From the NCBI GenBank assembly GCA_021018995.1, contig CM037595.1:95430491-95494490 (forward strand): DNA of 64,000 nt, in the 5' to 3' direction. A model generated the notes under the pieces. That model was not told where the DNA came from. It did not search any database and saw nothing but the letters and a program-made list of their open reading frames with translations. The position numbers and the translations under genes are program-made. Positions 2,624 through 63,687 of this stretch are shown in pieces (within the stretch, counting starts at the first letter, position 1; each line of letters starts with the position of its first letter). Source of the DNA: Chloranthus sessilifolius (Eukaryota; Streptophyta; Magnoliopsida; Chloranthales; Chloranthaceae).

Positions 2624-3688
2624 TATCACGGGTTCACTCTTCCAGCAATGTCAGCCAGTGCGGCACCTAACGCTCGATGCGCTAGGTCAGCCTATTTCTG
2701 ATGCCAACTATCACCGGAGCGTCCTTCAACCCTCTATCAACTCGTGCGGTGCCTCGCTGCCGCATGTAACGAAGCCAACCAATCTCTTCATCAGCTCTGA
2801 TACCACCCGCCTAGAAGACGAGAACTTCCCCTCATGGTTATATTCTTTTTAAGGCCTACCATCCGATGTATCGTGCCCCTTACAACACGCTCACTTGCAC
2901 CACTGTTTTATACTTGGCCTGCTCAAGCTTCACCCTGTGCACTGCATTAGCACCTTGCTTCGTAATAGTATTGGCATGCAGCTCCCCATGCCATCATGTC
3001 TTGTTCGCATACCGAGCCAAGCCCACAGTCGTGTGCCTACCTCATGCTGTCGTGCTCAACTGAGTCTCACACAGCTCTCATACTGTTATGCTCTACTGAG
3101 TCCCACGCAGCGCTCGTGAAGTTGCATAGTCGTATGTATCGCGACGTGTAGCTCGGGTCATACTTCAACCTCACCTTGGGTGCTACACAGCATCGTTGCA
3201 TTGACGTCCTAGGCCCACCCTTTCAGACTTAGGAGACACTTGCGTCTCCTCTGGCAACCTAAGGCCCTGTGTGTAGAAAAATAGCTCCCGAGCTCCCTTT
3301 CCTCATATAAGGGTAAAACAATAATTCAGTTAGAATGACAGAAGAACCTCAAATCCCTTGGTTTGACATACTTTACTATTCACACCGCAACGCCCCACAT
3401 CGCTAGCCCAGCTGGCCATGTCGCGATCGTGTCATTCCCGCATCGTCTTTCCTTGCGACCGTGTCGCGTTCTCGTAGCATGATCACGTCGTGAGGCCCTC
3501 CTGGCCCTATGTCGCGTGCCCTCCTGGTACTACATGCCATGCCATCCCAGTACCAAGATGTCGAGCGCCCTCTTGGTACCACATTGCGTGCCTCAGGCAG
3601 CAAGTCGCCACTGCCTCTACACGGAGTACAAGTGGCTCGAGTGGCGATGCGGATGGCCCGGGTAGCCACGTTACGTACCTCTGTCACA
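2624..3688 (-). repeat. 5' LTR of the TRIM-like element
   Basis: 1,065 bp, start TATCACGGG, end CTCTGTCACA, homologous over its length to 1120-2182. It also contains the internal PBS-like phrase (TTTCTGATGCCAAC at about 2694-2707, followed by TATCACCGG). Confidence 0.85.
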
Positions 3689-4792
3689 ATAGGCTTCAGG
3701 TGATGATTTCGCTTGAGCGGGGCGATTCACGCTCGAGCGTAAACTACAGAGTTGTTGTCTTAAACACACATACTCTGAACTCGAGCCGACCCTTAAGACT
3801 TCCCGAGATGGTCTAACAACACATCTAGCAAGCATAAAAAGAGCACTCGCTCAACTACGATATATTTATTATAATACACCTACAACGAGATTCACCACCA
3901 AAACCCAAAGTGATTTTCTACTCGCTATTATCCCCAAATTAGGGAGCTCATGCAAGGGTTTCAATGGTTAACCCCGAAGCGTCTCTTTCCGAGCTTCGGT
4001 TGCTTTCGATCCTTGAAAACCTTGCATGTGGCCTCGAGCATCGCTACCTAGCAGGGTTTTTGGGCTCTACGTTGTGACGTACACGAAAACAGGGTTACCT
4101 TCATAAACTTCTCTCGCATGCAACACTCAACGACACCAGGGCGTTGGATCAATGGTTTCGGTGTGGCGATCTCGCGACTCCTTCTCGCTGAAATGCGTAG
4201 TTTACAGGACCGTGGTGCTCCTAGTCATAGGGCTCTACTTCGTTGCGAAGCGGAGGAGTTTTCGGCACGGATCAGAGCTCAGCTGAATTGCTTGAACCGA
4301 AAAATGGAGGAGAAAGGGGACAACTCTCCTTTCTTCACTTCGTTCGCTCCACCCTCCCCCTTACACAGCGGACTAACCAATGCATGTGTTTAAAATAGGG
4401 TGACACGGATTGAGTGCTTGGCTTATACATCGTTGCACATGGTATGCAGCCCATCCAACGGTTCTCCACTCATGGGCTGCAGATGGGCCTCAATCCATCC
4501 AATCCCCACAGGCCATAGGGTCATGTTGGTCCTTTCCGGAAAAATCAATGGCATGTGACTCCTCACCATATTGGAGATGGCCCACAAGGGTTTAGCTCTT
4601 GCAATAGCCCCAATTGGCTGGTTCTAAGAAAGGCTTGTGGCCTAAGTCAGAATAGGTCCTCGATCCAAGTTGGCTTCCCTATGGGTCTCAAGTGAGTGGT
4701 GATCCCATGGATCGTTCCCGTCGCAAGGTCCTAATGGTTCGTGACACACCGTCAATCCGACCCTCACACGTGTGACAATGTGGGGTGTTACA

Positions 4793-16800: not shown

Positions 16801-18163
16801 TGATCAATGCTGAAATGTGACTATATTTTGCACTCTATTCCCTACATTTAGCTGTCTGATGAAAGCATCTGATGATTTTTATGAGGTTTTAATGGTTACA
16901 GGTGTTTCTGACCATTGGATCGTTAAAAAACATAAAAGAGGGTAATTAAAGGATACACAAGGGCTATGGATAAAAAGGTCAAAAGAAGCATCGAGATCCG
17001 TGAAGCAACTCAACATCCACCAAGAGAGTGGAGAATCTACCCTTTGATGTCAATCGATTGAGGACAAAGTGTCAATCGATTGACAGGAGAAGACAAGTTT
17101 GCCCTCTTATTTCGAATTCAAAAGTCAATGGATTGAGATTTAACTCTCAATCGATTGAGGCTATTAGGGATAGGGTTTGCTCGGCCCTATAAAAAGGAAG
17201 CTACGACTCATTGAAAGGGGCCCTTCTTTAACCATTTTTTGGATTTTATTGTGGGGAATTGAATTTTAGAGGTTTCTTCTTGGTTCTTTCTCTTAGTAAA
17301 TTGTATTAGGATTTCTTTTTAATTCTCTTATATAATTGTGAGAGCATAGATTGTACCTAGGAACAAAAAACATTATAAGGAGATTTTATGATAAATAAAA
17401 CGAGCATTGTTAAAATGATGTTTTCGGATCTACAATGGGTTTGTATGCCGAAGATGAGTGGCTAAAGTCATTTGCTCAAGGAGGAAGCAAACCGGAGATA
17501 AGTAACTGTTCTATTATTGTTTCTACAATTTCATGATTTTGTCATTGAATAATTCTGTTATAAGTGTGTGCTTAGTTGAATATTATCGAGTCTTCGTTTA
17601 TAATCATTGATTGTAGTTATCAACGATCGTAAAAGGAGCACTCCATCTAGATCTGTTCCTGCAGGCCGATCTAGGCTGTGGAATGATTGATTTATCATTG
17701 TCGTGACTTAAGATCTTGAGATATGCTATCTTTTTTATATGACTCATACCGCGATGATAGGCTGAGTCATAGTTTTTAGATAGGGTATGCCAGATCCATA
17801 GTCACGTCCTTCTCGATTCATTTATTTTCCTAATAAATGATAATGTTTTGACTTAAAATAAATTTGTTAGATTGAATGGTAGAAAAGTTACGAATCGATG
17901 GTTAGTTAACTCTTTGATCAATTCATAACCTGTCATTTTTCTTCTTTATCATAATTTGTTTCGGCCTAGATTGATTAGTTTTCTTTTATTGCATTGAAAA
18001 TTGTGTGGTAATTTGAATTTCTCCCTTGGTACTTCCTTGAGTGTTTTAGAGTCTCTGAAAGGATTAGATAAATTTCACATTTCTCTGTGGGTTCGACACC
18101 CCTGTTCTTACCATTCTACAATAGATCTTGTGCACTTGCAAGGGTTAAACTTAAATTAGACCA
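16801..18163 (+). repeat. 5' LTR of the Athila-type element
   Basis: 1,363 bp, starting TGATCAATGCTG and ending TTAAATTAGACCA. It contains four TCAATCGATTGA sites (starting at 17050, 17072, 17125 and 17147) just upstream of the TATA box. The two pairs are each spaced exactly 22 bp. Confidence 0.93.
17187..17197 (+). promoter_or_regulatory. TATA box of the 5' LTR promoter
   Basis: CTATAAAAAGG lies about 30 bp downstream of the last TCAATCGATTGA copy. The same box occurs in the 3' LTR at 32478-32488. The arrangement (paired palindromes, then TATA) suggests the palindromes lie in the promoter. Confidence 0.7.
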
Positions 18164-21911: not shown

Positions 21912-21920
21912 GAGAATGAA

Positions 21921-23537
21921 TTGTTAAAAGTGCTCAAAAATCATAAAAAGGCCATCGAATTGACCTTGGCTGATCTGAAAGGGATTGATCCAACAGTTTG
22001 TATGCACAAGATACATCTGAAAGATGATAGTAAACGATCGAGAGAACCACAGAGGCGACTTAACCAGAATATGAAAGAAGTCGTTTTAAAGGAAATCATT
22101 AAGCTGCGCGATGTTAGAATCATTTATCCAATCTCTGATAGTGAATGGGTAAGTCCAGTTCAAATTGTTTCGAAAAAGTCTGGGATCACTGTGAAAGAGA
22201 CTACCGAAGGAGAATTGGTACCCAGCCGTGAAACTACAGGGTGGCGCGTGTGCATCGATTATCGAAAATTGAACACGGCTACCAGAAAAGATTATTTTGC
22301 TCTTCCATTCATTGATCAAATTCTCGAGAAGTTAGCTAGGCAAGAGTTTTACTATTTTCTCGATGGATATTCGGGCTACAATCAAGTGCCCGTGTTTCCT
22401 GCAGATCAAGAGAAGACAATATTCACGTGCCCTTATGGTACTTTTGCATATCACAGAATGCCATTCGGCCTATGTAATGCTCCGACCACTTTTCAACGAT
22501 GTATGTTGGCCATATTTTTGGATATGATTGACAAGTTCATCGAAGTATTCATGGACGATTTCTCTGTTTTTGGGAAGACGTTTGAATCATGTTTAAATCA
22601 TCTTGCACAAGTGTTGCAACGTTATATAGAATCTAAACTTGTTCTTAGCTGGGAGAAAAGTCATTTCATGGTGCAACAAGGAATTGTGTTGGGACATGTC
22701 GTTTCAAAGAAAGGAATCAAAGTTGACAAGGCAAAAGTCGATTTAATCGCTAATTTGCCACCACCGAAGAGTGTTCGACAAATTCGATCATTTCTTGGTC
22801 ATGCAGGATTTTATAGGAGATTCATAAAAGATTTTAGCAAGGTCGCCAAGCCATTGTGCAACTTGCTTGGAAAAGATATTTCTTTTGACTTTGATGAGGA
22901 TTGCATGAAAGCATTTCTGAAATTGCGCGAGTTGTTATCTAATGCGCCGATAATCCAACCATCGGATTATTTTATACCGTTTGAACTCATGTGTGATGCA
23001 TCTGACTATGCTATTGGAGCAGTCTTAGGGCAAAGGGTAAACAAATTACCTCATGTGATCTACTATGCTAGTAAGACATTGATTGATGCACAACTAAATT
23101 ATACCACCACTGAGAAGGAGTTATTAGTCGTGGTGTATGCTTTGGATAAATTCTGCTCCTATTTGCTCGGATTGAAAATAGTAGTCTTTTCAGACCACTT
23201 GGCTTTGAAATATCTGTTAGCAAAGAAGGACACCAAACCAAGGTTGATCCGATGGATCTTACTTCTCCAAGAGTTCAATTTTGAGATCAAAGATAAAAAG
23301 GGGGTCGAAAATGTTATGACTGATCATTTGTCAAGAATTTTGCCTGAAGAATCATCGGTATCTAAAACTATCTGTGATACTTTCCTAGATGAACAATTGA
23401 TGGCAATATGTGCCACTGCTACAAAAGTTCCTTGGTTCTCCAATATTGTGAACTATCTGGTTACTGGTAGAATCCCTACCCAATGGGGTAAAAATGATAA
23501 AAATATGTTTTTCTCGCAAATAAAATACTATTTTTGA
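21921..23537 (+). pseudogene. Reverse transcriptase and RNase H of Athila pol
   Basis: 538-codon uninterrupted stretch, in frame with the protease. The reverse transcriptase shows WRVCIDYRKLN, the palm region PFGLCNAPTTFQR and the catalytic F-M-D-D box at about 22549-22560. RNase H follows with Asp in MCDASDYAIGAVLG, Glu in TTEKELLVVVYALDK and Asp in FSDHLALKYL. This is the best-preserved coding stretch of the window. A TGA at 23535-23537 ends it, after which the same frame continues into integrase. Confidence 0.93.
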
Positions 23538-29578: not shown

Positions 29579-30228
29579 TGATCAGTGTTGAAATGTGACT
29601 ATATTTCGCACTCTATTCCCTACATTTAGCTGTCTGATAAAAGCATCTGATGATTGTTATGAGGTTTTAATGATTACAGGTGTTTCTGATCACTGGATCA
29701 TTAAAAAATATAAAAGAGGATAATTAAAGGATACACAAGGGCTATGGATAAAAAGTTCAAAAGAAGCATTGAGATCCGTGAAGCAACTCAACATCCACCA
29801 AGAGAGTGGAGAATCTACCCTTTGATGTCAATCGATTGAAGACAAAGTGTTAATCGATTGACAGGAGAAGACAAGTTTGCCCTCTCTTATTTTGAATTCA
29901 AAAGTCAATCGATTGAGATTTAACTCTCAATCGATTAAGGCTATTAGGGATAGTGTAATATCTCGAAAAAAAAAAATCACGTTAAACTGTGACCTCGGGA
30001 TCCATGCCCGATTGGTCACAAGTTTGACCAATTAGGAGATCAAGGGTTAGTATAGAGTGTGATGAACGGATGAGATGTGATGGGTTGAGTGTTTATGTGG
30101 TGTGCGATGGGAATGTGAAGTCGCGTACACCTATCACGGTGTATGTGCTCAACGCACAAGATAGGGGATAGATAAAAGGGTTTCATAACCCTAAAATCAA
30201 TAGTTTTGATTGTTGAAGGAGAGTAAAG

Positions 30229-30256
30229 AAGAGAGAGAGAGAGAGAGAGAGAGAGG
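30229..30256. repeat. (GA)n microsatellite
   Basis: About 13 GA units inside the solo LTR. Confidence 0.9.
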
Positions 30257-30545
30257 AGTTATTGCAACTGATTGGAAGGGGGGATTCAAGCAATAAAAGC
30301 CGGATTCGACACGGTTTGGATCCATTAGAGCCAAAGCTGGAACCCTAGCCTTTCCAACCACTAGATCTAATCAAATTGAGAATTGATCGAGGTAAATTTC
30401 TTGTGAATTAAATGCATAAGTTATGGGAGTTTAATCGTAGTTAGGAATGGTTAAAATCATAGATTAAAGGCTTAGAAAAAAGAAAGAAAAATAAATGGAG
30501 AAAGATTTAGAAGAACAACTCAAAAGGGGTTGAATCTGGCCATTT

Positions 30546-30980
30546 CGATTAATCGAAATTGAATTTCGATTAATCAATTTTGGCCAAGAAGTTGAAAAGT
30601 CAGAGGACCCCGATCTCGATTAATCGAATTGGGTATCGATTAATCGACTGGGAACCTACAGTGAACCCCAGTGGAGGAAAGAAAACAACTTGGAGAAATC
30701 GACTAATCGAAATGGGAATTCGATTAATCGATTTAGAAATTCGATTAATCGATTTGGGATCGATTAATCAATTTTGGAAATTTGATTACTCGAATTGGGA
30801 ATCGACAGGATAGAGTAGAGAATTTCGATTAATCGAATTGGGTTTCGATTAATCAAATGGGAATCTCGATTAATCGATTTGAGAATCGATTAATCGATAT
30901 TGACTTTCGATTAATCGATTTTGGAAATCGATTAATCAAATCAGATTCGATTAATCAATTTTGGAGTTCGATTAATCGAC
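30546..30980. repeat. Array of CGATTAATCG palindromes
   Basis: Around 17 copies of CGATTAATCG or one-base variants, many at 19-21 bp centre-to-centre distances (for example 30546 to 30567). Free bases between them are irregular. It lies about 600-1,030 bp into the solo LTR. Confidence 0.88.
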
Positions 30981-33461
30981 TGGGCTAGTTTATGTTGACT
31001 TTTGAGTTTGACTTTAAGCTTCATGGAGGGTCTTGGACCTCCTTTATTGCATCTTTAGTGATGTGTTTCACATGTTATGTGGAACCATAGGTGGTACGTG
31101 TGAGCTAGTGCACAAGGAGCCACGTGGGACCTTGATGCATTGATCGAACGAAGACTTGAGGTAGGGAACATCTTGAACATGTACTTTATCTTACAAGAGC
31201 ATGTATGTAGTGATATAGAATTCAATTCAAAATATTTTTATTGCTTAAGAATTGTGAAAAGTGTGTGTGCGTGACATCCATAAGAGTAATTATCATAAAC
31301 CATCCCCAAGGGATGAGGAGGTAAAGAGGTAAGAGCATCAGGTGTGATGCAAGTGAATGGATACATCCCAGGGATGTATCCAAGATTGAATCATGTTGGA
31401 TAGGGCCTAACTGATATAAGATAGCACAATTATACGGTGAATAACTATATGTAAGTACCTGATACTTTTGTTATTTGAGGTTTGATAGGGTACCCCACCG
31501 ATGTGACGGAATATCCACGACTGACACGGCAGGATACCCGTGACCGATATGGCGACGAAACCGTAGGCCAGTGCGGAGGCTTATCCGTACACAGTAAGCA
31601 TACCCCAGGGGTGTTGATTGGGACTAGTGAAACCCTGCCACCAATCCCCAGGGGAAAGGGGCTTGGGTACTATTTGTATTTCAAGGAAATATGTTAAAAG
31701 TGTCTATATAGATGACGATGATGGGTATCTTATCGGGGCTCGATGCTATATTGCTCGGAGATTACTTAAGTTGAAAGTTTAAGTTTTGCTTTAGGCCTTT
31801 TCAGCATCATTCATGAATAAATAAAGACATAAGTAACTACCAGTAAAAATGTGATGCTTTTAATTGTTTTCATCAGAAACTGCATAGACACAACATGCAT
31901 GGCATATCATGGAATATATGTGAGTGATAATTTATATGTTCAATTGTGTTTGTTCCCTACTGAGCTAGGATGTAGCTCACCCTATAGACTATACGTCGCA
32001 GGTCCACTACTAGCAGCTGCCGAGGCTTCAGGAGACGCTGACCCCGGTGAGTCGGACCTTGCGGCCGGTGAAGAGTTGGAGCCACCTCCGGAGGACTTCT
32101 TCTAGAGGACTCCGTTGTGCCGCTTTGAGGGCTTTTTGATAGAGATTTGTACGGCTTGGTATGTCAAGCCTTATTTTGGCTAAACAATGTACATGTATAA
32201 ATTGAGACTATTCTTTTGGGGCGAACCATCCGTGATGATTTGTTATCATCGATGGTTCGAATCGGTTCTCCATTCATGCAGAGGCATGAGGGTAGAACTG
32301 TCTTTTGAGAAATGCTTTAATATATATTTAAATTTCGCAGTTTCAATTACTAATTCGTTTTGCTTGATATGCCAATATTTCGTGCTTAGCTAGGGGGCAC
32401 GGTCAAGATGATCGTGCTGATGGCACGGGTTTCGGGGTGCTAAAATTCGGGCTGTCACAGATAGGGTTTGTTCGGCCCTATAAAAAGGAAGCTACGACTC
32501 ATTGAAAGGGGCCCTTCTTTAACCATTTTTTGAATTTTATTGTGGGGAATTGAATTTTGAAGGTTTCTTCTTGGTTCTTCTTTCTCTCAGTAAATTGTAT
32601 TAGGGTTTCTTTTTAATTCTCTTTTATAATTGTGAGAGCATAGATTGTACCTAGGATCAAAAAGCATTGTAAGGAGATTTTGTGATAAATAAAATGAGCA
32701 TTGTTAAAATAATGTCTTCGGATCTACAACGGGTTTGTATGCCGAGGATGAGCGGCTAAAGTCATTTGCTCAAGGAGGAAGCAAACCGGAGATAAGTAAC
32801 TATTCTATTATTGTTTCTATAATTTCATGATTTTGTCATTAAATCATTCTGTTATAGGTATGTGCTTGGTTGAATATTATCGATTCTTCATTTACAGTCA
32901 TTGATTGTGGTTATCAACGACCGTAAAAGAAGCACTTCATCTAGATCTGTTCCTGTAGGCCGATCTAGGCTATGGAATGATTGATTTATCATTGTCGTGA
33001 CTTAGGATCTTGAGATATGTTATCCTTTTAACATGACTCATACCGCGATGATAGGCTGAGTCATAGTTTTTAGATAGGGTATGTCGGATCCATAGTCGTG
33101 TCATTCTCGATTCATTTGTTTTCCTAATAAATGATGGTGTTTTGACTTAAAATGAATTTGTTAGATTGAATGGTAGAAAAGTTATGAATCGATGGTTAGC
33201 TAACTCCTTGATCAATTCATAAACTGTCATATTTCTTCTTTATCATAATTTATTCCGGCCTAGATTAATTAGTTTTCTTTTATTGCATTGAAAATTATGT
33301 GGTAATTTGAATTTCTCCCTTTGTACTTCCTTGGGTGTTTAAAGTCTCTGAAAGGATTAGATAAATTTCACATTTTCCTGTGGGTTCGACACCCCTGTTC
33401 TTACCATTCTGCAATAGATCTTGTGCACTTGCAAGGGTTAAACTTAAATTAGACCAGATGG

Positions 33462-36555: not shown

Positions 36556-36877
36556 TAAGTGAGGTGACTTTAACATAGTAAGAGAAATATCTAGTACCAA
36601 CCACCATAGCTTCAACTTTTATGCTTTGGAATACTAATTTCATTTTTTTTCGTAACTGACCAACTTGAAGTGACGCTAAGTTAAAAAGTCGTAAATACCT
36701 CTAAAGTCTATAAAAAGTGATAAAACGAAGCTTTTCGTCTTGGACAGTTCTAAACACCTTAGCATCATTGACTGCATTGAATCCCATGACAACGAATGTT
36801 TTTCACCCTGATCTTCACATGATTGATCTTGAGATTATGGGCGCACAATCATATTGTTCATTTTACACAAAAATATG

Positions 36878-53713: not shown

Positions 53714-54082
53714 CCAGGACTACGGGTTCTAAGTTCTAACCCACGGCGGAGGGATGGATTAAGGATGGATTAAAATTAGTTGGGGTCTATGTGGCATCCA
53801 TTTGAGGAATGGAATTCTACGGCAACTTGCCTAAGGATTATCAAGGGCCACCCAAATTTTTTGGGTATGATTCAGTGCATATTCATCACCTAAAATGTGG
53901 TAAAAGGGGAAAAAATTCAATGCATTAGGATATATTGGCGGTACCCAAACTTTAACCATACTTTTAACCAACATAAAAACTTTTATTTTCGGATTAATTT
54001 TTATAGATCAAATGCCACATGGCACATGATCCCAAAACGGGTGTTATTTTGAAATCGCGTGTCACATGGCATATAATTTAAT
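53714..54082. other. Intergenic, target site of the MULE
   Basis: No gene seen. TATAATTTAAT at 54072-54082 is the left copy of the MULE target duplication. Confidence 0.6.
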
Positions 54083-54170
54083 GAAATTTACCTAATCGGC
54101 CCTGTCAGATACACCTTTTACATTAGAGGCCCTGTAGTTTCACCTTTACCCAAACCGACCAGCTCCAAAC
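54083..54170 (+). repeat. Left terminal inverted repeat of the MULE
   Basis: Contains CGGCCCTGTCAGATACACC and TTTCACCTTTACCCAAACCG, mirrored at the right end. Confidence 0.9.
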
Positions 54171-54591
54171 CTAGCCGACCCTAAGGAGAGTAAAAAGTCT
54201 AAATTACCCCCTTCTATGACTTTTTTTAACCCACAAAGCATCCTCTTCTTCCTCATTTTAATCTGCTAAAAAGTTAGAGGTGGGTCAGGTCACAGGTGAC
54301 GACATCTTCTTCCTTAGTCTAATTTGCTCCGATCTGCTATTTCGAAGAAGAAAACAGAGGCTTGGGAGAAGAAGCCGTGCATTTCTCCGTTGTGACAAGA
54401 AGACCCTGCAGTTTGCCCTTGAGACGCGAGGTATCTTACATAAACCCTATTTTCAGTTTATTAGGGTCTCTTAATGGGGCAATATAAGAAATAATTTAAC
54501 TTTATTGGTCCACATTTTCAGTTTGTTAGGATCTTCTATTCGTGCAGTAAAAGAAAGTCTTTGTATCCTTAGATCATTTTTTGAAAAGTAT

Positions 54592-54855
54592 ATATCGATT
54601 GCAAATATAATCGTCATCGACTTTATATACAGTCAATATCTATTGCAAATATAACCGTTATCGACTCTATATTTAATCGATAACGATTGTCTATATATAT
54701 TGTCTATAAAGTCGATGACGATTATATATACAATCGATATCGATTGTATATAGAGTCAATGACGATTATATTTGCAATCGATATCGATTGTATATACATA
54801 CGATATCGATTGTATATATAATCGGTATCGATTGTATATATAATCGATATCGACT
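54592..54855. repeat. MULE palindrome array 1 (upstream of the transposase)
   Basis: About twelve units of the form ARTCG-N4-CGAYT plus eight AT-rich bases, nearly all exactly 22 bp (for example AATCGATATCGATT followed by GTATATAC). It lies between the left end and the transposase ATG at 54920. Confidence 0.95.
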
Positions 54856-54919
54856 CACAATCGTCCTTTCTTTTTTGTTTCATCAGTCTTATGATCCCTT
54901 CCTTCTCATTCTTAAATAG

Positions 54920-57654
54920 ATGATGACGGACGTGAGGATTCCTCTTCTTTATCACTATGATGGCCTTCTTGTAAACGATGATGGCTTGTATGAAGGTGGC
55001 CGGAGGAGGGTTATTAACATTTCGACAAGTATTTCTTATGAATAATTCATGAGGCGAATGTTTGTTGTCAATTTTGCGAGGGCGAATGAAACAGTTTCCA
55101 CAAAGTTTCATATGAAGATAGTGAATACCCCTGTGGTTGTCGACATTTTGGACGCTGATGATTTGGCTACCCTATTTACGTTTTATAGATTCGGGGTGGA
55201 CGTCATAAAGGTATTCATCATTAAGGAACCTCATCCTTCCGAGTCGAAGCTGAACAAGTAGATCTTGGCGGGACTGAATTTCAGCCATATAAATTTGAGG
55301 ATGAAACTGTATACGATACCGTCCTGTTAGGCGATGATAGCGATATTACGGTGAACATGACTGCCAGGAAAGTAACTTTTGATTTAAACGATGCTCCGAT
55401 TGAATCGTATGATGACCCACTAAAATACATGCATGAGTCACAACAATGTAGTCAATGGTTAGATTACACTTCAAAACGGGTTGTGGATACCGACGATTTC
55501 AGTCATATCTTCCCCGGTGGATGGACAACTTGGTTTACTCACGAATTATGTTCTACCATACCATCGATGAGAATTACCGAAGAAACTCAATCCCATGTCC
55601 ATACACATGGGCACCCCTTCAGTGAAGGGCCTAGTCAATCACACCATTATCGATTCGGTGAAGGATCTAGTCAATCACATCAGAACTCCTTTGGTGAAGG
55701 ATCTAGTCAACCACCTGAGAACACCGCTAGTGAATGGCGTAGTCATCCTCAACCCACTAATGAAGATACCTTAGAAGAAGATTATGAAAGCGAACCGGAT
55801 GGATTTATAAAAGAGGATCCGAAAATTTTTGTGAGAGATATTGATAATCCCCTAGTAGACGAAGATTACGAAGTGTCAAAGACATCGGGCGACTCCTTCG
55901 ATGAAGAGGTGGAAACTAAATATCGAAATTAGACGTTTAAAGTTGGAGAGATCTTTCGAGACAAATAAACATTTCAAAGAGCATTGAAAGAGAGCGCGAT
56001 GGAGAAAAACTTTTAAATTCGACCTGTGAAAACCGCTAGTTATCGAGTGACAGTCAGATGCTACGAACCCGATTGTTCGTAGCGAATATATGCGTCTAAA
56101 TTGACTAGGCTCAATTCTTTCCAAATCAAGACATTCAATAGTACTCACACATGCGGGGCTGCTAAGATCGGACCGCACGATCACCGTAATCTAATAATCT
56201 CCTTCGTAGCCAACTATGTACGGGATAAACTTATGAAAGAATTCAACTATACACCAGCGTCGATAATGTTTGATATTGCAAAAGCTTATAATGTACAAAT
56301 CTCATATGCAAAGGCTTGGAGGGGAAAAGAATTTGTCCTTAATGATAATAGAGGTAGTTGGGAAGGATAATTTGTGAATCTACCGGCCTACATGAAGGAG
56401 ATGGAGAGGGTAGATCCTAATGTACAAGCATCCTTTCAACTTACACTTGACGGTAAGTTTCAATTTTTTTTTTAGAGTTTTGTCTCGTGCATCGGAAGCT
56501 ACCGCAATACACTTTATCGCATATTGCTTGTAGACGACACACACCTATGAGAATGTTTCGAAGGGATCCTACTTATCGCCTCGGCACAAGACGGTAATGG
56601 TCATATATTACCGTTAGCATTTGTCGTCGTCGAGTTAGAAGAAGAGGATACGTGGATATGGTTTCTTGAACGGGTAGGTACGTTTGCGATTGGTGGGTTT
56701 AACGAAGATTTCATTTTTATCACTTATAGGTCGAAGGATTTAATAAATGCGGTGAAATATATCTTCCCTAACGCATATGACAACTACTGCATGCGACATT
56801 TGACACAAAATTTGGCACACAAGTATCCCAAGAATAATGTGAAGGGTCTATGGTGGAAAGCTGCGCGTGCATATTCAGTAGAGATATTTAATTATTTTAT
56901 GAACGAAATGAAGAAAGATCCTGCTGATCCTTGGGTCGTACATTATATTTCAAAAATAGACCCGAAGTATTGGGCACGCACACATATGGAAGGAAGGCAG
57001 TACGATTCTCTGACTACCAATAATGTCAAAAGCTTAAACAGCGTATTAAAGATAGCTCGAGAGAGACCAATTATCAACTTAATCAGAACTACTAGAGAGA
57101 AAGTAGCCGATTATTTTCAAAAGCGCAGACAGATATCTGAGAAATGGACCACCCTCCTCTACCCGAAGGCAGACGAGCATATGAAGAAGGTGTTGCAATG
57201 GGTTGGTAGAAAGAGAGCTCAACCATACGGGCGCGATTAATTCCAAATCAACTCCGAAAATTGCATTCATCACGTCGACTTAGAACACAAGATGTGTAGT
57301 TGCCGCCGTTGGCATATTCATGGCTTGCCTTGCTCCCATGCCGCGGCGGCCATTAATCGAAGAAGTTATGACTACCATAACTTCTGTGAGAAGTAGTTTT
57401 TCATCGCTTGCTTTAGACAAACATACGACGAGCAATGGCTTCTCACTCTCGATAAAAGCCAATGGGAGTTCCAAGCATAGCAACTCCCTGAAAATATGAA
57501 AGTGAGACCACCCTATACTTACTGAAAGCAAGCCGACCGTCCGAGGAAGAGAAGGATAAGGTCTAAGGGTGAGATTAGGACCCTACAATGTAGTAGGTAT
57601 AGTGAATATGGCCCCAATCGCAGGAGTTGCACGGCAGTGGGACCGATGGGTTGA
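54920..57654 (+). pseudogene. MURA-type transposase of the MULE, decayed
   Basis: Would cut and reinsert the element at its inverted ends. Reading starts at ATG 54920 (MMTDVRIPLLYHYDG). Stops include TAA 55043-55045, TAG 55930-55932 and TAA 55966-55968, with a frameshift near 55258. Later parts stay in one frame. In order: an acidic Ser/Gln-rich region, a MuDR DNA-binding domain (VGEIFRDK, about 55938-56160), the MULE catalytic domain (first Asp in LLVDDTHL, IASAQDGNGHILPLAF, CMRHLTQNLAHKYP, about 56500-57050), a SWIM zinc finger (C-S-C...C-S-H, 57294-57340) and a degenerate zinc knuckle (second Cys is Tyr). The second catalytic Asp (usually SDR) reads TYR, and the Glu of the ESLN motif reads KSLN. 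About a dozen stops; not functional. Confidence 0.9.
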
Positions 57655-57801
57655 TAGTGTATATTTTTAATAAAGATAGATGGAATACAAATGAGAATAT
57701 ATATTTACTCAGAAATTCAGAATCTAGATTTTTTTGATTTGTAATAGTTGTAATTTTACTGTACAGTTACACAGAAACATGCAACCAAGAATGTACAAAT
57801 G

Positions 57802-58055
57802 AGCCGTCAGCGACTGTATATATAGTCGTTGCCGATTACTTATAGAGTCGTCATTGACTATATAAATAATCGATAGCGACTCTATACAGAGTCGCCATCG
57901 ACTTTCTATAAAGTCGATATCAATTTATTTTAGAATCGATATCGATTATTAATATAGTTGATAACGACTCGAAATAAAGTCGATAGCGACTCTATATAGT
58001 CGTTATCGATTATTTATATAGTCGATGACGACTATATATAAAGTCGATAATGACT
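57802..58055. repeat. MULE palindrome array 2 (between the two genes)
   Basis: Twelve units between the transposase stop and the end of the Ulp1 gene; one unit is 20 bp, the others 22 bp. The fixed letters are (A/G)TCG and CGA(C/T) eight apart, the centre N4 varies (ATAT, TTGC, GCCA and so on). Confidence 0.95.
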
Positions 58056-58174
58056 GCTATTTCTAAATTATAATCACTGCTACTTAAAAATGTTTCAATT
58101 ATATTAAAAATATTTCATTTATAAAAAATGTGTCATTTACATTTACAAAATATTTCATTTATATTATAACAACA

Positions 58175-58474
58175 CTACTGCTGCGCCTCCTCTTTGTCGT
58201 CCTCCTCCAGTTTTCCTCCCCCATCGTCGGTGTATGTAGCCAGTGTATGGCCAATTTCTGCCCTAATCTTATCCATATCTGATTGCGCAAAGTCAAATTT
58301 CTTTCCCGACATAAAGTACTCCACATACTTCACCACAAACACCCCACAATCACTCGAATTGGTCAGTTGGGAAAGGGCTTTGACCTGGCAGTCATTAGAT
58401 GACTAAAGATAGGTCTGCGTGTTCAATGCAGTAGAGTCACCGTACGAATATAAAACCGTAGGAAGGTATTGGGT
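58175..58474 (-). pseudogene. Exon 7: C48 peptidase C terminus with catalytic Cys
   Basis: Begins after TTTTGAAACAG (acceptor) and ends with TAG 58175-58177. It contains QVKALSQLTNSSDCGVFVVK, the Gln/Cys region of Ulp1 peptidases, and an acidic tail. One in-frame TAG near 58405 interrupts it. Confidence 0.88.
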
Positions 58475-58548
58475 CTGTTTCAAAATAGAAGAATGTCAAA
58501 TATGCTAAGCTAACAATGATAAAAGATATGCTAAGCAAAATATCTTAC

Positions 58549-58689
58549 CAGCGTTTTTAATTGGGTCAGATATTTTTCCTTAGAGGGCCTATTAAATATA
58601 GCGTCGACGACCATTATCGATCGTTCGACTACCTTCACGATCGCAAGCGCCCAGTGTAATGGTTGTTGTGAATGAATTGACATAAATAT
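58549..58689 (-). pseudogene. Exon 6: catalytic His and Asp part
   Basis: Flanked by TTTTTTGTAG acceptor and GTAAGA donor. Encodes HSQQPLHWALAIV and MVVDAIFNRPS; 47 codons, no stop. Neighbour introns are 65 and 74 bp and hold no palindrome array. Confidence 0.88.
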
Positions 58690-58754
58690 CTACAAAAAAG
58701 CAATATAATCTCAAAGGGTATGATAGAAAAATTATAAAGAGGTTAGAAGCATAC

Positions 58755-59039
58755 TGTACTGCACTCGTGAGCCCACAGATTCCGAAACTGATTGAAGAAG
58801 AAAATTTTCATCAGCTTCTTGCCTTGGCTCTGTTCTTGTTTATAGGCAGCCCATCGTTTAATTTGACTCTCGAATGATTCTTCATATAATTTTTCAGCGA
58901 CAAGGAACTTGTTGAAATCGTTTAGTTCAAAGCCCATATACGTCAGAGTGGTAGGGCCCATAAGGAAGCTTTTGTTCTTTATATCAGGATGAATATCGTC
59001 ATCAATTACTTTCAAGTGTCTCAGGTAGGCACCCATAAT
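58755..59039 (-). pseudogene. Exon 5 of the Ulp1-like gene
   Basis: 95 codons, open, beginning IMGAYLRHLKVID after a GGTTTCAG acceptor and ending at a GTATGC donor. It encodes a mixed helical stretch between the start of the peptidase and the catalytic His. Confidence 0.85.
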
Positions 59040-59065
59040 CTGAAACCAAAGCAGTTAGAGTTAAA

Positions 59066-59290
59066 TAATCAGTATCGACTCATTTTATAGTCGATGACGA
59101 CTATAAAAATAATCGTTATAGACTTTACAATGAATTGATATCGATTATATATATAATCGCCATCGACTATACAATGAATCGATACCGATTCATTGTAAAG
59201 TCGAAAACGATTATATAAGTCATCGTCATCGATTATAAAATGAATCGATACCGATTCATTGTAGAGTCGATAACGACTCTATTTCGAGTC
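59066..59290. repeat. MULE palindrome array 3 (intron 4 of the Ulp1-like gene)
   Basis: About ten 22-bp units, all within the intron 59040-59343. Spacer bases such as CATTGTAA differ from those of other arrays while the pitch is the same. Confidence 0.95.
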
Positions 59291-59343
59291 ATCGAGAGCT
59301 TTAAATTATCTATTTGTGCCTACAATAGCTTTACTTTACTTAC

Positions 59344-59457
59344 AAAATTATCCATGTACTGCGTACCCGCCAAACATCTGAAAGATTGCACTTTCAGCGT
59401 ATAGTTACCGACGGTGCTTATATAGTCGCCGCATAAATAAAGGCCAACGTAACTAAT
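59344..59457 (-). pseudogene. Exon 4: start of the C48 peptidase
   Basis: 38 codons encoding SYVGLYLCGDYISTVGN and AGTQYMDNF, then donor GTAAGT. The acceptor (ACGAAG) is weak, so the 5' limit is less sure. Confidence 0.75.
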
Positions 59458-59530
59458 CTTCGTAATACATTTATAAATTTATAATAATAAAGTGAAAGAT
59501 TCAGGCTTGTTCCTGGGAAGAATAACTTAC

Positions 59531-59971
59531 TCGTCCTCCTTCTTAGGCTTGTTCCATCTCTAGCAAGTATTTCTGCTCCGCTGTCGGCACAACAGTAGCA
59601 TCATCAGCCGTAGACCTAGGCTCAGCGGTAGCATTAGTCACCGGTCCTGGCTTAGCAGTTTTTATTTCAATGGCCTTCTCGGTTATAGGCTTTTTTACCG
59701 TCGCTACCCTTCATTGTGTCCTAGGTTTGACAGCAGCTGTTTTGATGAGTTTCTCTTGCCTAGGTCTTAAGCGAGGGTCAATTTGTTGGTGAGGCAATTG
59801 GGAAGAGGTTTGCTCTTCACCAGCTGGACCCTTATCGGTTTGAGTCTCAGGCTGCTCGTCAGCAGTTGCCGTCACCTCACCCGTGGGAGGATCCTAATGC
59901 AGGGGAGCTGATGGTTCCTCATCAACCGTTGTGTCGCACACTTTCGATATCAGCTCCTCAATACCGCCATC
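59531..59971 (-). pseudogene. Exon 3: acidic and Pro-rich linker
   Basis: Starts DGGIEELISKVCDTTVDEE after a TTCAG acceptor; ends at donor GTAAGT. Three in-frame stops. Low complexity, typical of a linker between DUF1985 and the peptidase. Confidence 0.75.
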
Positions 59972-60012
59972 CTGAACATCGAAATAATGGTGCAAAATAT
60001 TTTAAAAAATCC

Positions 60013-60220
60013 AAATCGATTTTACATTTAATCGTTATCGACTGTATATATAGTCGATAATGATTCAATATACAGTCGTTATCGACTGTATATATAGTCG
60101 ATAACGATTAAATATACAGTCGTTATTGATTGTACATATAATCGATATCGACTCTATAGAAAGTCGATAGCGATTGTAAATGTAATCGTTATAGATTCTA
60201 TGTACAGTCGATATCAATTT
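60013..60220. repeat. MULE palindrome array 4 (intron 2)
   Basis: Nine to ten units at 22 bp within the intron 59972-60265, for example AGTCGTTATCGACT plus GTATATAT twice. Confidence 0.95.
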
Positions 60221-60265
60221 ATGTTAACAAATCTGAACACATAAATACCACGTTTCAACACATAC

Positions 60266-60851
60266 CTTAGGTCTCGCCTCCAATAAATTTTCAAGAAGTT
60301 CTTTTATATTCCTGCCCTTCGACCAGCAGGTTGTAGTGATTCAACTTCTGCAATTCTGCATCCCTTGATTTCAGCCGCTCATTCAAGGAGTTGCATAGTT
60401 TCTCTATGGAAGCGCAACGTTTTGCCAGGACCTTATTCTCTCCTTCCAAATCGTTCACTCTTTGGGTGAGCTTCAAGTTCTCCAGCGTCAAATCGTCGAC
60501 CCTCCTCAACAACGACTCATTGGAGGTCGACGGTTCAGCTGGGCTCCCTTTCGCAGCTAGGCTCTCCTTCGTGGCCCCCCTAGTTTTCGGCCGCTCTACA
60601 CCTGCATGGATGGGGCCCTTTTTCGAGGACGGTTCTTCATCCGACGTCGATTGGTCATCCCATTCTTCCTCATTAATATTCTCGATCGGAATGTAATTTC
60701 TCTTCTTCTTCGATCGCATCTCTTCCACAGCTTTCTTGACTGGTTCATGAGGCTCTTTCCTCTTCCCCCCAAAGACATTTTTAACCCATAAATATTCTTT
60801 TAAGACGGATATCTCTAATTCGAAGCCAACAGGTACGAGGGGAGCGCGAAC
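60266..60851 (-). pseudogene. Exon 2: coiled coil
   Basis: Starts VRAPLVPVGFELEIS after a CTTTTAAAAG acceptor. A basic patch (RSKKKRNYIP), an acidic Ser/Asp patch, and a heptad-rich stretch (LTLENLKLTQRVNDLEGENK to LKSRDAELQKLNHY) follow. One slip near 60310 shifts the last part; in the other frame the exon ends LLENLLEARPK at donor GTATGT. Confidence 0.82.
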
Positions 60852-60931
60852 CTTTTAAAAGAAAAGAAAACACGATAAATAACAGACTAAATTGATCATA
60901 TATTCCAAATTCAAAGTATCAACTATTTAAT

Positions 60932-61206
60932 AAATCACTATCGATTCTGTAATGAATCGATACCGACTATTTAATAAATTGTTATCGATTCTGTACTGCA
61001 TTGTTATCGATTACTTAATGAATTGGTATCGACTACTTAGTAAGTCGTTATCGATTCGGTAATAAATCGTTATCGACTTATTAAATAGTCGTTATCATTT
61101 TGTAACATCATCGCTATCGATTACTTAATGAATCGGTATCGACTACTTAGTAAGTTGTTATCGATTCTATAATGAATCGATAAATTATTTTTTGAATCGG
61201 CATCGG
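60932..61206. repeat. MULE palindrome array 5 (intron 1)
   Basis: Twelve or so units at 22 bp inside the intron 60852-61255. Spacers are of the type ACTTAATG/ATTCTGTAATG. Confidence 0.95.
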
Positions 61207-61255
61207 GTCTCTCTACTCCTTTTATTTGAATTATTTAATTTAATAGACCTCATAC

Positions 61256-62070
61256 CTTATTGTCTATCATCTGTCTGCGTGTGTAACCTCTGATCCTTGA
61301 CTGCGCCCTGTCCGACCATTTCAGCAGTCGTGGGAAAGGGACCTCAAGGCCTATCTGAGAAGGCGAGATATCTGGCAGCATCTCGTAAGCCCATCATTGA
61401 AATACACATATGTATTCATATGTGTTGTACGTTTTAAGGGCTTTATCCATCTCGGCGGTCTTTCTATTCGCCGCGACCTTCATTATATACTCTATCAAGT
61501 CATGGTACACATGGAGACCCCACAAAGTTCGGTTAAAGTTCTCGACGTCATTGATGAGGTCGATGTGGTCTTCCGCCAGTTGATGGTGGGACCCGAGAAA
61601 AAGAAATATACATAACACATATAGAAGAGATAACTTTACGGAAGTCGTCATCACTTTCTGCTCTCTAAATTGCAGCATCTATATAAGAACGGATAATTTT
61701 TTCAGGAGGCGTTCCACAAAAGTATTTGTATCGAAGGGTTTGTTCTTTCGGTGGTTTGATGGACGGGGTATACTTTTCTGAGCCAACTACGGCAAGGCCC
61801 AGTATCAATGCAATGTCCAACTTCCAAAGATAAACATCAGTCTTTCAGATTCGGAAGTGATTTTTTTCAACCCAAAACGTTAACATCGCATCGACCACGT
61901 CGGAAAGAAATTTCACACCATTAGGCATTTGAAATATTCCACCGAAAGCTAAATCTTTCAGCAACTTCTTTCGAGTTGGGGTAACATTATCGTAGAGATT
62001 CGAAATTGCACTGGGGGAACACTTGGCAACAAGTCGGTGTACAACCATCTTAACAACTAGTTGAAATAAA
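61256..62070 (-). pseudogene. Exon 1 (or first recognised exon): DUF1985-like domain
   Basis: A clear acceptor (TTTTTTATTACAG, 62071-62079) precedes it, so an upstream exon probably existed. It carries MVVHRLVAKCSPS (62048 on), LDIALILGLAVVG, a helix NRTLWGLHVYHDLIEYI and FPRLLKW; these follow the order seen in plant DUF1985 Ulp1-like proteins. Stops at about 61832 and 61672, another near 61396, and a frameshift near 61640. Confidence 0.8.
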
Positions 62071-62144
62071 CTGTAATAAAAAAGAAAGGACTGAGTCACA
62101 TACTAACAAGGATAGTTTAAATGTTAACTGAATTGTAATATATA

Positions 62145-62326
62145 AAACCGATATCGATTATATTAGAGTTGATATCGATTGTATATGTAATCGATAACGA
62201 CTATAAATGTAATCGATATCGATTTTATTTGTAGTCGTTATCGATTACATATAGAGTCGATAACGATTACAATTAGAGTCAATCTCGATTACATGAAGAG
62301 TCGATATCGATTACATTTAGAGTCGT
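62145..62326. repeat. MULE palindrome array 6 (upstream of exon 1)
   Basis: Eight units at 22 bp (AACCGATATCGATT to AGTCGATATCGATT). Located in the probable intron or leader upstream of the DUF1985 exon. Confidence 0.95.
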
Positions 62327-62481
62327 TTTTTAATTTACAGACTCAAAATATTTCATGAAGTTTTCATCGACTTAAAATATTTCATTTACAGTTAAAAATG
62401 AAATCTGGACACACTAAACTAAGACTCAGACAGCAACGTCCGATAGAAGATTCTTCGATAAAGATCGGTCCTAGGCTTCTA

Positions 62482-62660
62482 AGATTAAGAGGTGGGTGGT
62501 TCAGTCTTAATTTTCTTTTCTTCCTTCGCCAAAATTTTCTGCACTTCCTCGTATTCGTCCCATAGGAACTACAGAGGATCTGATTCTGGTGGTGGTGGTG
62601 GGTCCTCCCATACTGGAAAGAACTTGATTGAGTTATAGTTAGTTTTTTTATCTTTTTTTA
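62482..62660 (-). other. Possible upstream exon or ORF remnant
   Basis: On the minus strand a frame encodes FFPVWEDPPPPPESDPL, then after a stop FLWDEYEEVQKILAKEEKK and a stop at the end (about 62485). It could be a 5' exon of the Ulp1-like gene or remnant of a separate frame. I do not recognise it. Confidence 0.35.
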
Positions 62661-62965
62661 TCGTCTGTCATGGGGAAAGATAGGCTGGTAGGGATGATAG
62701 AGACTCATTTTACTAAGGACGAACTAAACCTGTATTTAAAGCGCCTAGATTGTGGAATACGAATCGTTATATTAATGGTTTTACAAAAGGTTACTTGCCA
62801 TAATAGTTTTACAAAAGGACAGTTGGTAATAAATTGAAGGAAATTAGACGTTGGCTGAGATAAATATAAAATCTCGTATGATTTATTATGGGTTATGGCA
62901 TCGAGGAGTTAATATGATGGATAATAATTATATGAGAAATTTGGGTATTAATTATATACAGAGAG

Positions 62966-63119
62966 AGTCGATATTGATTTTTTATAGAGTCGTCATCGAC
63001 TATTTATATAGTCGATTTCGACTACAAATACAATCGATATCGTCTCTATATACAATCGATATCGACTCTCTATGTAATCGATAACGATTACATATACAGT
63101 CGATATCAATTGTATATAG
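62966..63119. repeat. MULE palindrome array 7 (near the right end)
   Basis: Seven units at 22 bp. Located about 280 bp inside the right inverted repeat. Confidence 0.95.
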
Positions 63120-63399: not shown

Positions 63400-63487
63400 G
63401 CGCAGCGGGTCGATTTGGGTAAAGGTAAAACTATAGGGCCTCTAACATAAAAGGTGTATCTGACAGGGCCGGTCAGGTAAATTTCCT
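63400..63487 (-). repeat. Right terminal inverted repeat of the MULE
   Basis: On the minus strand: CGGCCCTGTCAGATACACC and TTTTACCTTTACCCAAATCG in the same order as the left end. Confidence 0.9.
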
Positions 63488-63687
63488 TATAATTTAATAT
63501 TCTAACCCACCTCCTATAGGCTCAAACCTGTTGTCCTATTTGCCAATTTTGAGTAGGACACATTAAGTTTTGAGAAGGATTCTAGTTATGTAATTTCATC
63601 TATTAGTGGATGCACAATTTGTTAATAAAAGGCTGGTGTTACTACAACACGAATTCAATTTTTGTTATAGCCACTTCAAGTAAATCA

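Follow-up and report, generated by a model that had tools for sequence, protein, structure and literature searches.

Sequence-specific anti-silencing by transposable elements (TEs) has been described, in the literature covered, from the VANDAL elements of Arabidopsis, where VANC21 sits on non-coding regions (introns, intergenic and terminal regions) through arrays of same-oriented YAGTATTAY motifs (Hosaka et al. 2017, PMC5735166). VANC6 uses other motifs, the target motifs differ between VANDAL families and the tandem repeats turn over (Hosaka et al., PMC5735166), and RNA-directed DNA methylation (RdDM) targets the non-coding regions of VANDALs (Sasaki et al., PMC10398659). A crystal structure of VANC21 is mentioned in a meeting report (PMC8756742). 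According to a survey of Mutator-like elements (MULEs), some members of the VANDAL clade have terminal inverted repeats (TIRs), half of the members have PMD and/or DUF genes, and PMD genes occur in several MULE groups (PMC6446971); TIRs and PMD genes are thus not new in themselves. A 2026 review assigns the Ulp1-bearing VANC genes of Kaonashi (KIU) to non-TIR MULEs (PMC13317346), and another review has it that TEs may produce PMD proteins against silencing, MAIN and MAIL1 being host silencing factors (PMC8616336). Here we analyse a 64-kb stretch of the Chloranthus sessilifolius genome (assembly GCA_021018995.1, contig CM037595.1, positions 95,430,491 to 95,494,490; henceforth the window), where seven arrays of a 14-bp palindrome, repeated every 22 bp, all lie inside one MULE insertion of about 9.4 kb with TIRs. 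Judged from the sequence, these arrays are probably docking sites for a VANC-like protein encoded by the element, for which the PMD/DUF1985(-Ulp1) protein of the minus strand is the likeliest candidate.

The palindrome ARTCGNNNNCGAYT has 38 exact sites in the window, every one of which starts within 54609-63076, as against 0.08 expected in the element (50 first-order Markov simulations, none with more than 1 site). Allowing at most one mismatch raises the count in the element to 65 (1.6 expected) and adds 8 sites elsewhere in the window. The distances between pairs of these 65 sites are dominated by 22, 44, 66, 88 and 110 bp (51, 43, 36, 31 and 24 pairs, respectively), and off-pitch steps of 20 bp (at 58.0 kb), 21 bp (62.1 kb) and 35 bp (54.7 kb) occur. 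An earlier inspection of the letters of this DNA (the sequence-only reading) had claimed seven arrays of 22-bp pitch at the places listed in Table 1, which the site counts and the multiples of 22 bp bear out, and the placement in the leader, the intergenic space and the right subterminal region agrees with the open reading frames (ORFs) and termini that we found; its assignment of three further arrays to introns is plausible. Its proposal that the sites lie on one face of the helix holds approximately only, as a pitch of 22 bp implies two turns at 11 bp each instead of 10.5 bp.

A transposase search of the genome gave 150 scored matches from 6,088 candidates; 20 of the 150, mostly with an uninterrupted core, were taken as relatives, so that the sample is biased towards intact copies; with the window copy they make up 21 elements. 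All 20 relatives carry arrays, and the copy number of the units differs between them. With gap occupancy scored in crude fixed-coordinate bins from chains of at least 3 units, all seven non-coding gaps are filled in 12 of the 21 elements and at least 5 in 20 of the 21, with two filled in L010. Exact sites that follow one another within 100 bp give 890 steps across the 21 elements; 674 of these are 22 bp and 807 are 22, 44, 66 or 88 bp. Genome-wide, a pair of sites at pitch 22 is found at 36,651 places in 2.17 Gb against 49 for the reversed pattern, which corresponds to about 1,140 full-element equivalents of arrays (at 32.1 pairs per element); the specificity of the pitch is judged on the 21 elements and this reversed-pattern control. 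The observed/expected ratio of CpG is 3.34 in the arrays and 0.94 in the remainder of the element.

The anatomy of the unit was derived from 1,110 units of the 21 elements (600 distinct, in 175 chains), located via exact seeds with the degenerate units between seeds also counted, by which ascertainment bias is reduced and still present. The consensus is ARTCG-N-Y-R-N-CGAYT followed by an AT-rich 8-bp spacer with a weaker TA centre, position 7 being T or C in 97% and position 8 A or G in 96% of the units. Therefore, of the motif given by the sequence-only reading, ARTCG-N4-CGAYT with freely varying central bases, the half-sites stand and the free core does not, the core being N-Y-R-N. In this family, whose half-site letters we call the TCG code, the Y-R steps are spaced 11 bp apart. 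Two variants of the family may be noted. A more diverged member at C1:122608-126575 (L001-L004) is apparently internally deleted, with an N-terminal part of the transposase and a PMD part left, and its arrays are still at 22-bp pitch. The relative L023, which is 62% identical to L011 in an alignment without part of the PMD/DUF1985 domain, keeps the TCG code and has a tendency to add one base to the half-site, CAATCG...CGATTG (G 93%, C 67%, 46 units).

The half-sites are conserved while the spacers drift. Orthologous units were compared in anchored gap-free arrays (157 array pairs with 1,059 units; pairs share elements and are non-independent), placed in four bins of flank divergence of 2.7, 6.1, 10.6 and 19.2% that hold 50, 48, 29 and 30 array pairs. 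In the order of these bins, divergence is 6.4, 13.1, 13.8 and 31.0% in the spacer, 4.2, 10.8, 13.9 and 38.2% at the N positions of the core and 6.2, 10.3, 12.3 and 16.8% at its Y-R. For the half-site the corresponding values are 0.7, 1.7, 3.9 and 2.6% for T/A, 4.0, 6.0, 5.7 and 7.2% for the CpG and 2.6, 9.1, 10.5 and 36.8% for R/Y. The low values at T/A and CpG and the high values at R/Y indicate that the TCG/CGA letters are kept and that the R/Y letter is not. Units inside one array tell the same, with a difference of 44% between spacers, where composition predicts 53%, and of 5% between half-sites; 98 of 164 half-site departures are CpG transitions. With spacers diverging by 6 to 31% and half-sites by 1-4% (T/A) and 4-7% (CpG), the arrays are not the product of plain recent tandem amplification, as the sequence-only reading had argued. 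That reading had also named the absence of arrays from relatives, a random pitch, or spacers diverging no more than half-sites as signs of ordinary slippage; we find arrays in the relatives, a pitch of 22 bp and spacer divergence far above that of the half-sites, with one exception among very recent array pairs that is taken up below. Coding sequence is constrained as well: for six pieces of both genes the median ratio of nonsynonymous to synonymous divergence (dN/dS) is 0.40-0.53 overall and 0.34-0.53 at dS of at least 0.2, in a comparison where dS is saturated in some pairs, many copies have stops and a stretch inside the DUF1985 domain is left out.

The insertion has the marks of a MULE, i.e. 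a MULE transposase domain, TIRs of about 86 bp and an exact 11-bp target-site duplication (the criterion is about 9 bp). Both genes are damaged in the window copy, the transposase being open in pieces only and the minus-strand gene having stops and a frame change. In the relatives L022 and L016 the transposase has MULE, DBD_Tnp_Mut and SWIM domains (PF10551 75.4 and 77.8 bits), and a protein database holds 71 relatives of the transposase with identity of at most 35%. The PMD/DUF1985 domain is a single open exon in several relatives (L011, L016, L020). The Ulp1 (Peptidase_C48) domain reaches 43.9 bits (PF02902) in L016, and the L022 counterpart of the coiled-coil-like frame matches HAUS5 at 26.6 bits (cut-off 25.6). 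The PMD/DUF1985, coiled-coil-like and Ulp1 frames are assumed to share one minus-strand transcript. No homologue was found by a protein database search for an 85-residue piece, nor for the 282-residue PMD/DUF1985 ORF among proteins of 0.55-1.75 times its length.

Table 1. Positions of the palindrome arrays, termini and coding regions of the MULE insertion, numbered from the first base of the window; array limits are approximate.
Feature	Position	Strand	Remarks
Palindrome array 1	54587-54863		Leader of the transposase gene; corresponding place filled in most relatives
Palindrome array 2	57802-58063		Between convergent genes; exact sites and sites with at most one mismatch, relatives
Palindrome array 3	59067-59286		Putative intron; exact sites and sites with at most one mismatch, relatives
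Palindrome array 4	60008-60227		Putative intron; exact sites and sites with at most one mismatch, relatives
Palindrome array 5	60933-61174		Putative intron; exact sites and sites with at most one mismatch, relatives
Palindrome array 6	62146-62320		Upstream of the PMD/DUF1985 exon; exact sites and sites with at most one mismatch, relatives
Palindrome array 7	62966-63119		Right subterminal; exact sites and sites with at most one mismatch, relatives
Left TIR	54079-54164	+	86-bp ungapped block; 63404-63489, reverse-complemented, matches it at about 90% as judged by eye
Right TIR	63404-63489	-	Pairs with 54079-54164
Target-site duplication TATAATTTAAT, left copy	54072-54082		Exact 11-bp direct repeat; last bases overlap the aligned TIR block
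Target-site duplication, right copy	63488-63498		Exact 11-bp direct repeat of 54072-54082
Transposase gene	55046-57499	+	Open in pieces only; core 56551-57240; PF10551 MULE 49.7 bits
Ulp1 (Peptidase_C48) exon, C-terminal part of domain	58175-58402	-	PF02902 35.5 bits, cut-off 20.7, profile positions 162-206 of 217
Conserved open frame of minus-strand gene	58743-59054	-	No Pfam match; median dN/dS 0.41 across 19 elements
Coiled-coil-like open frame with basic stretch	60291-60854	-	Weak coiled-coil matches under cut-off
PMD/DUF1985-type domain, broken here	61394-62102	-	In the window piece, DUF1985 at just 15.2 bits

Among Pfam families PMD, ahead of DUF1985, matches the minus-strand domain best: in L016 it scores 34.6 bits for PF10536 (PMD, cut-off 34.9) and 21.2 bits for PF09331 (DUF1985, cut-off 35.1). 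When the family domain (alignment A3) is compared with the DUF1985 proteins of this genome, hhalign gives a probability of 98.9 and an E value of 1.2e-17, and one of the DUF1985 proteins, that of L028, matches the solved VANC21 chain 9lnj with an E value of 1.2e-4. By this two-step argument through L028 the PMD/DUF1985 protein would be a distant relative of VANC; direct homology of the family to VANC21 was considered and dropped, as the comparisons were negative and the route via L028 is the one that works. An intron inside the DUF1985 domain was also considered and rejected, since alignment to other DUF1985 proteins shows the stretch to be coding; alignments A1 and A2 are without this stretch, and the conclusions are drawn from A3-A5.

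Six further DUF1985 loci (L025-L030, of 150 listed) were examined, and one of them, L029, whose DUF1985 domain is 38% identical to that of L011, carries palindromes with other letters. There RGCG-N4-CGCY has 13 exact sites where 0.27 would be expected, or 35 against an expectation of 4.0 once a single mismatch is tolerated, and spacings of 21 and 22 bp are the most frequent. L030 is a weaker case, with 7 exact RGCGN4CGCY sites and a less clear pitch. The motif thus changes between related elements, from the TCG code to a GCG code, and both codes are tied to DUF1985 elements. Pairs of the GCG code at pitch 22 number 1,446 genome-wide; for this code the reversed pattern, with 17,555 places, is too abundant to serve as a control. 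Among the first fifty pairs listed of the 1,446, the commonest form is GAAGCG-N-YR-N-CGCTTC and Y-R occurs in 81 of 100 cores; a Y-R step in the spacer is present in 11 of the 50, and this rarity rules out that an 11-bp spacing of Y-R steps is general.

Anti-silencing fits these arrays best, for the layout agrees with that of the VANC targets in the literature, and one of the element's own genes encodes a PMD/DUF1985-type protein. It may be noted that the sequence-only reading had offered anti-silencing and transposase binding side by side; the former is the part that we retain, and the latter is weakened by the internal position of five of the arrays. From the observed sites, their pitch, distribution and conservation, the encoded protein and the second code, we infer the identity of the reader, its dimerisation and cooperativity, and an effect on methylation, which might work as follows. 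A symmetric dimer would read each 14-bp palindrome (half-site ARTCG), and cooperative binding between adjacent dimers, packed 22 bp apart, would confine occupancy to dense arrays. In copies that bear the code, silencing marks (DNA methylation, RdDM) would be kept off the occupied non-coding gaps or stripped from them, at the ends and between the genes as well as in the leader and introns. The half-site letters and the protein would change together (TCG versus GCG), limiting the effect to kin.

Several results weigh against docking by such a VANC-like protein. The published VANC21 and VANC6 motifs are non-palindromic and CpG-free. The DUF1985 scores of the family with TCG arrays are under the Pfam cut-off, and no match to VANC21 was returned when the family domain was searched directly against it, nor for the L029 protein. 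The DUF1985 loci L025, L026 and L027 were examined and no palindrome arrays were found in them, and arrays of similar pitch seem to be present in long terminal repeat (LTR) retrotransposons of the same genome. Within the half-site, the R/Y letters of the most diverged pairs (36.8%) are no more stable than the core. In 32 very recent array pairs, decay is nearly equal in half-sites (3.4%) and spacers (4.1%), and 86% of the half-site changes are transitions, mostly CpG transitions. This last result is what decay of inserted copies in the absence of selection, chiefly by CpG loss, would give; on this reading the constraint works across the lifetime of the active lineage.

Other palindrome arrays, probably in LTR elements, were seen as well. 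YCGC-N4-GCGR pairs at pitch 22 occur at 17,555 places, among those listed mostly as the palindrome TCGCTCGAGCGA; in at least 4 of the listed cases (e.g. C1:361012 and C1:366721) two such places lie 5.6-5.8 kb from each other, a distance suggestive of LTRs. In L028, a GGTGATCGATCACC palindrome array at 3265-3708 with a pitch of about 19-21 bp lies on the 5′ side of a Ty3/gypsy gag gene and therefore probably belongs to that element. In the window itself, a TTCGATTAATCGAA palindrome array (30545-30980, steps mostly 19-22 bp) lies in a 2.5-kb insert at about 29953-32463, which by eye starts with TG, ends with CA and has GATAG on either side; it looks like a solo LTR within the right LTR of a retrotransposon with reverse transcriptase at 21912-23534. 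Sequence related to this insert is present in L029 and L030. An extension of the docking model, which we regard as rather unlikely, would make the 14-bp palindrome, Y-R core, two CpGs and 22-bp lattice a general addressing system read by a cooperative PMD/DUF1985 filament, with each TE family owning a letter code (TCG, GCG, perhaps others). The half-site CpGs would turn the lattice into a methylation-sensitive switch, where occupancy keeps an array free of methylation and methylation bars it from being bound again, and LTR retrotransposons may use a similar scheme (TCGCTCGAGCGA, TTCGATTAATCGAA, 19-22 bp pitch).

Among the other explanations, a host protein (a transcription factor or insulator-type protein) that recognises the sites and maintains expression of the element is unlikely: palindromes suit many dimeric factors and the probable LTR elements here have palindromes of similar pitch, yet the half-site differs between related DUF1985 elements, which is a better fit for an element-borne reader. 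Binding of the element's own transposase, through DBD_Tnp_Mut, for building a transposition complex is quite unlikely. The relatives' transposase has that DNA-binding domain and arrays 1 and 7 are close to the ends, but the five internal arrays of the seven would be of no help in pairing ends, for which the TIRs are already there. It is very unlikely that the arrays act as RNA, with transcripts forming long hairpins that feed or block a small-RNA pathway. All seven 150-nt array pieces fold much more strongly than their shuffles (z -5.1 to -11.0; 0 of 200 shuffles as good), but permuting the unit order or the spacers in 96 arrays has a small effect (mean z -0.65 and -0.87), the real array beating all 30 permutations in 7% (unit order) and 15% (spacers) of arrays. 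The folding thus comes mostly from the palindromy of the units, and it is the exact half-site letters that are conserved; the source of 22-nt RNA proposed in the sequence-only reading gains no positive support from it. Phased bendable steps that position or exclude nucleosomes, with no letter-specific protein, are a highly improbable cause, since the 11-bp spacing of Y-R steps in the TCG-code family that speaks for them is set against the rare spacer step of the GCG code and TCG/CGA letters conserved beyond the needs of DNA mechanics. Ordinary minisatellite slippage, probably the source of new units and in keeping with tandem units, copy number that varies among relatives and little position effect in very recent pairs, is hardly credible as the sole cause, being rejected by the unequal, position-specific divergence of orthologous units and by near-random spacers beside conserved half-sites in one array.

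If docking by an element-encoded VANC-like protein is true, protein-DNA co-evolution in a TE arms race becomes directly testable, and targets that bear CpG tie recognition to the contested mark itself. What we describe is a candidate anti-silencing system whose code can be read: the half-sites are symmetric, the lattice is fixed, and in a related element the letters are swapped. In a literature search at the level of listings, and mostly outside subscription literature, we recognised no account of palindromic 22-bp arrays in MULEs.

Among the known systems, the likeness to MAIN/MAIL1 lies in PMD as the best Pfam match; those proteins are host silencing factors, whereas the reader proposed here is element-borne, and the part of the review covered (PMC8616336) does not mention target arrays. 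Kaonashi resembles this element as a MULE whose transposase is accompanied by an Ulp1 domain in a further gene region, the domain being represented here by its C-terminal part only, but the present element has TIRs of about 86 bp and matches PMD better than DUF1985. The Kaonashi label of the sequence-only reading is therefore right as to Ulp1 and fails on the non-TIR criterion. The VANDAL motifs (YAGTATTAY; AGTTGTCC/AGTTGTAC) are short, non-palindromic and CpG-free, and same-oriented for VANC21, whereas the present arrays have a 14-bp palindrome, two CpGs and a 22-bp pitch. Like the VANC21 and VANC6 targets, they are dense tandem motifs in the non-coding gaps of a MULE with a gene for a DUF1985-type protein, the motif varies between related families, and units are gained and lost. 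As the motif is palindromic and the homology indirect, the arrays may be called candidate VANC targets, which they resemble in layout and density, in constraint and in the family specificity of the code.

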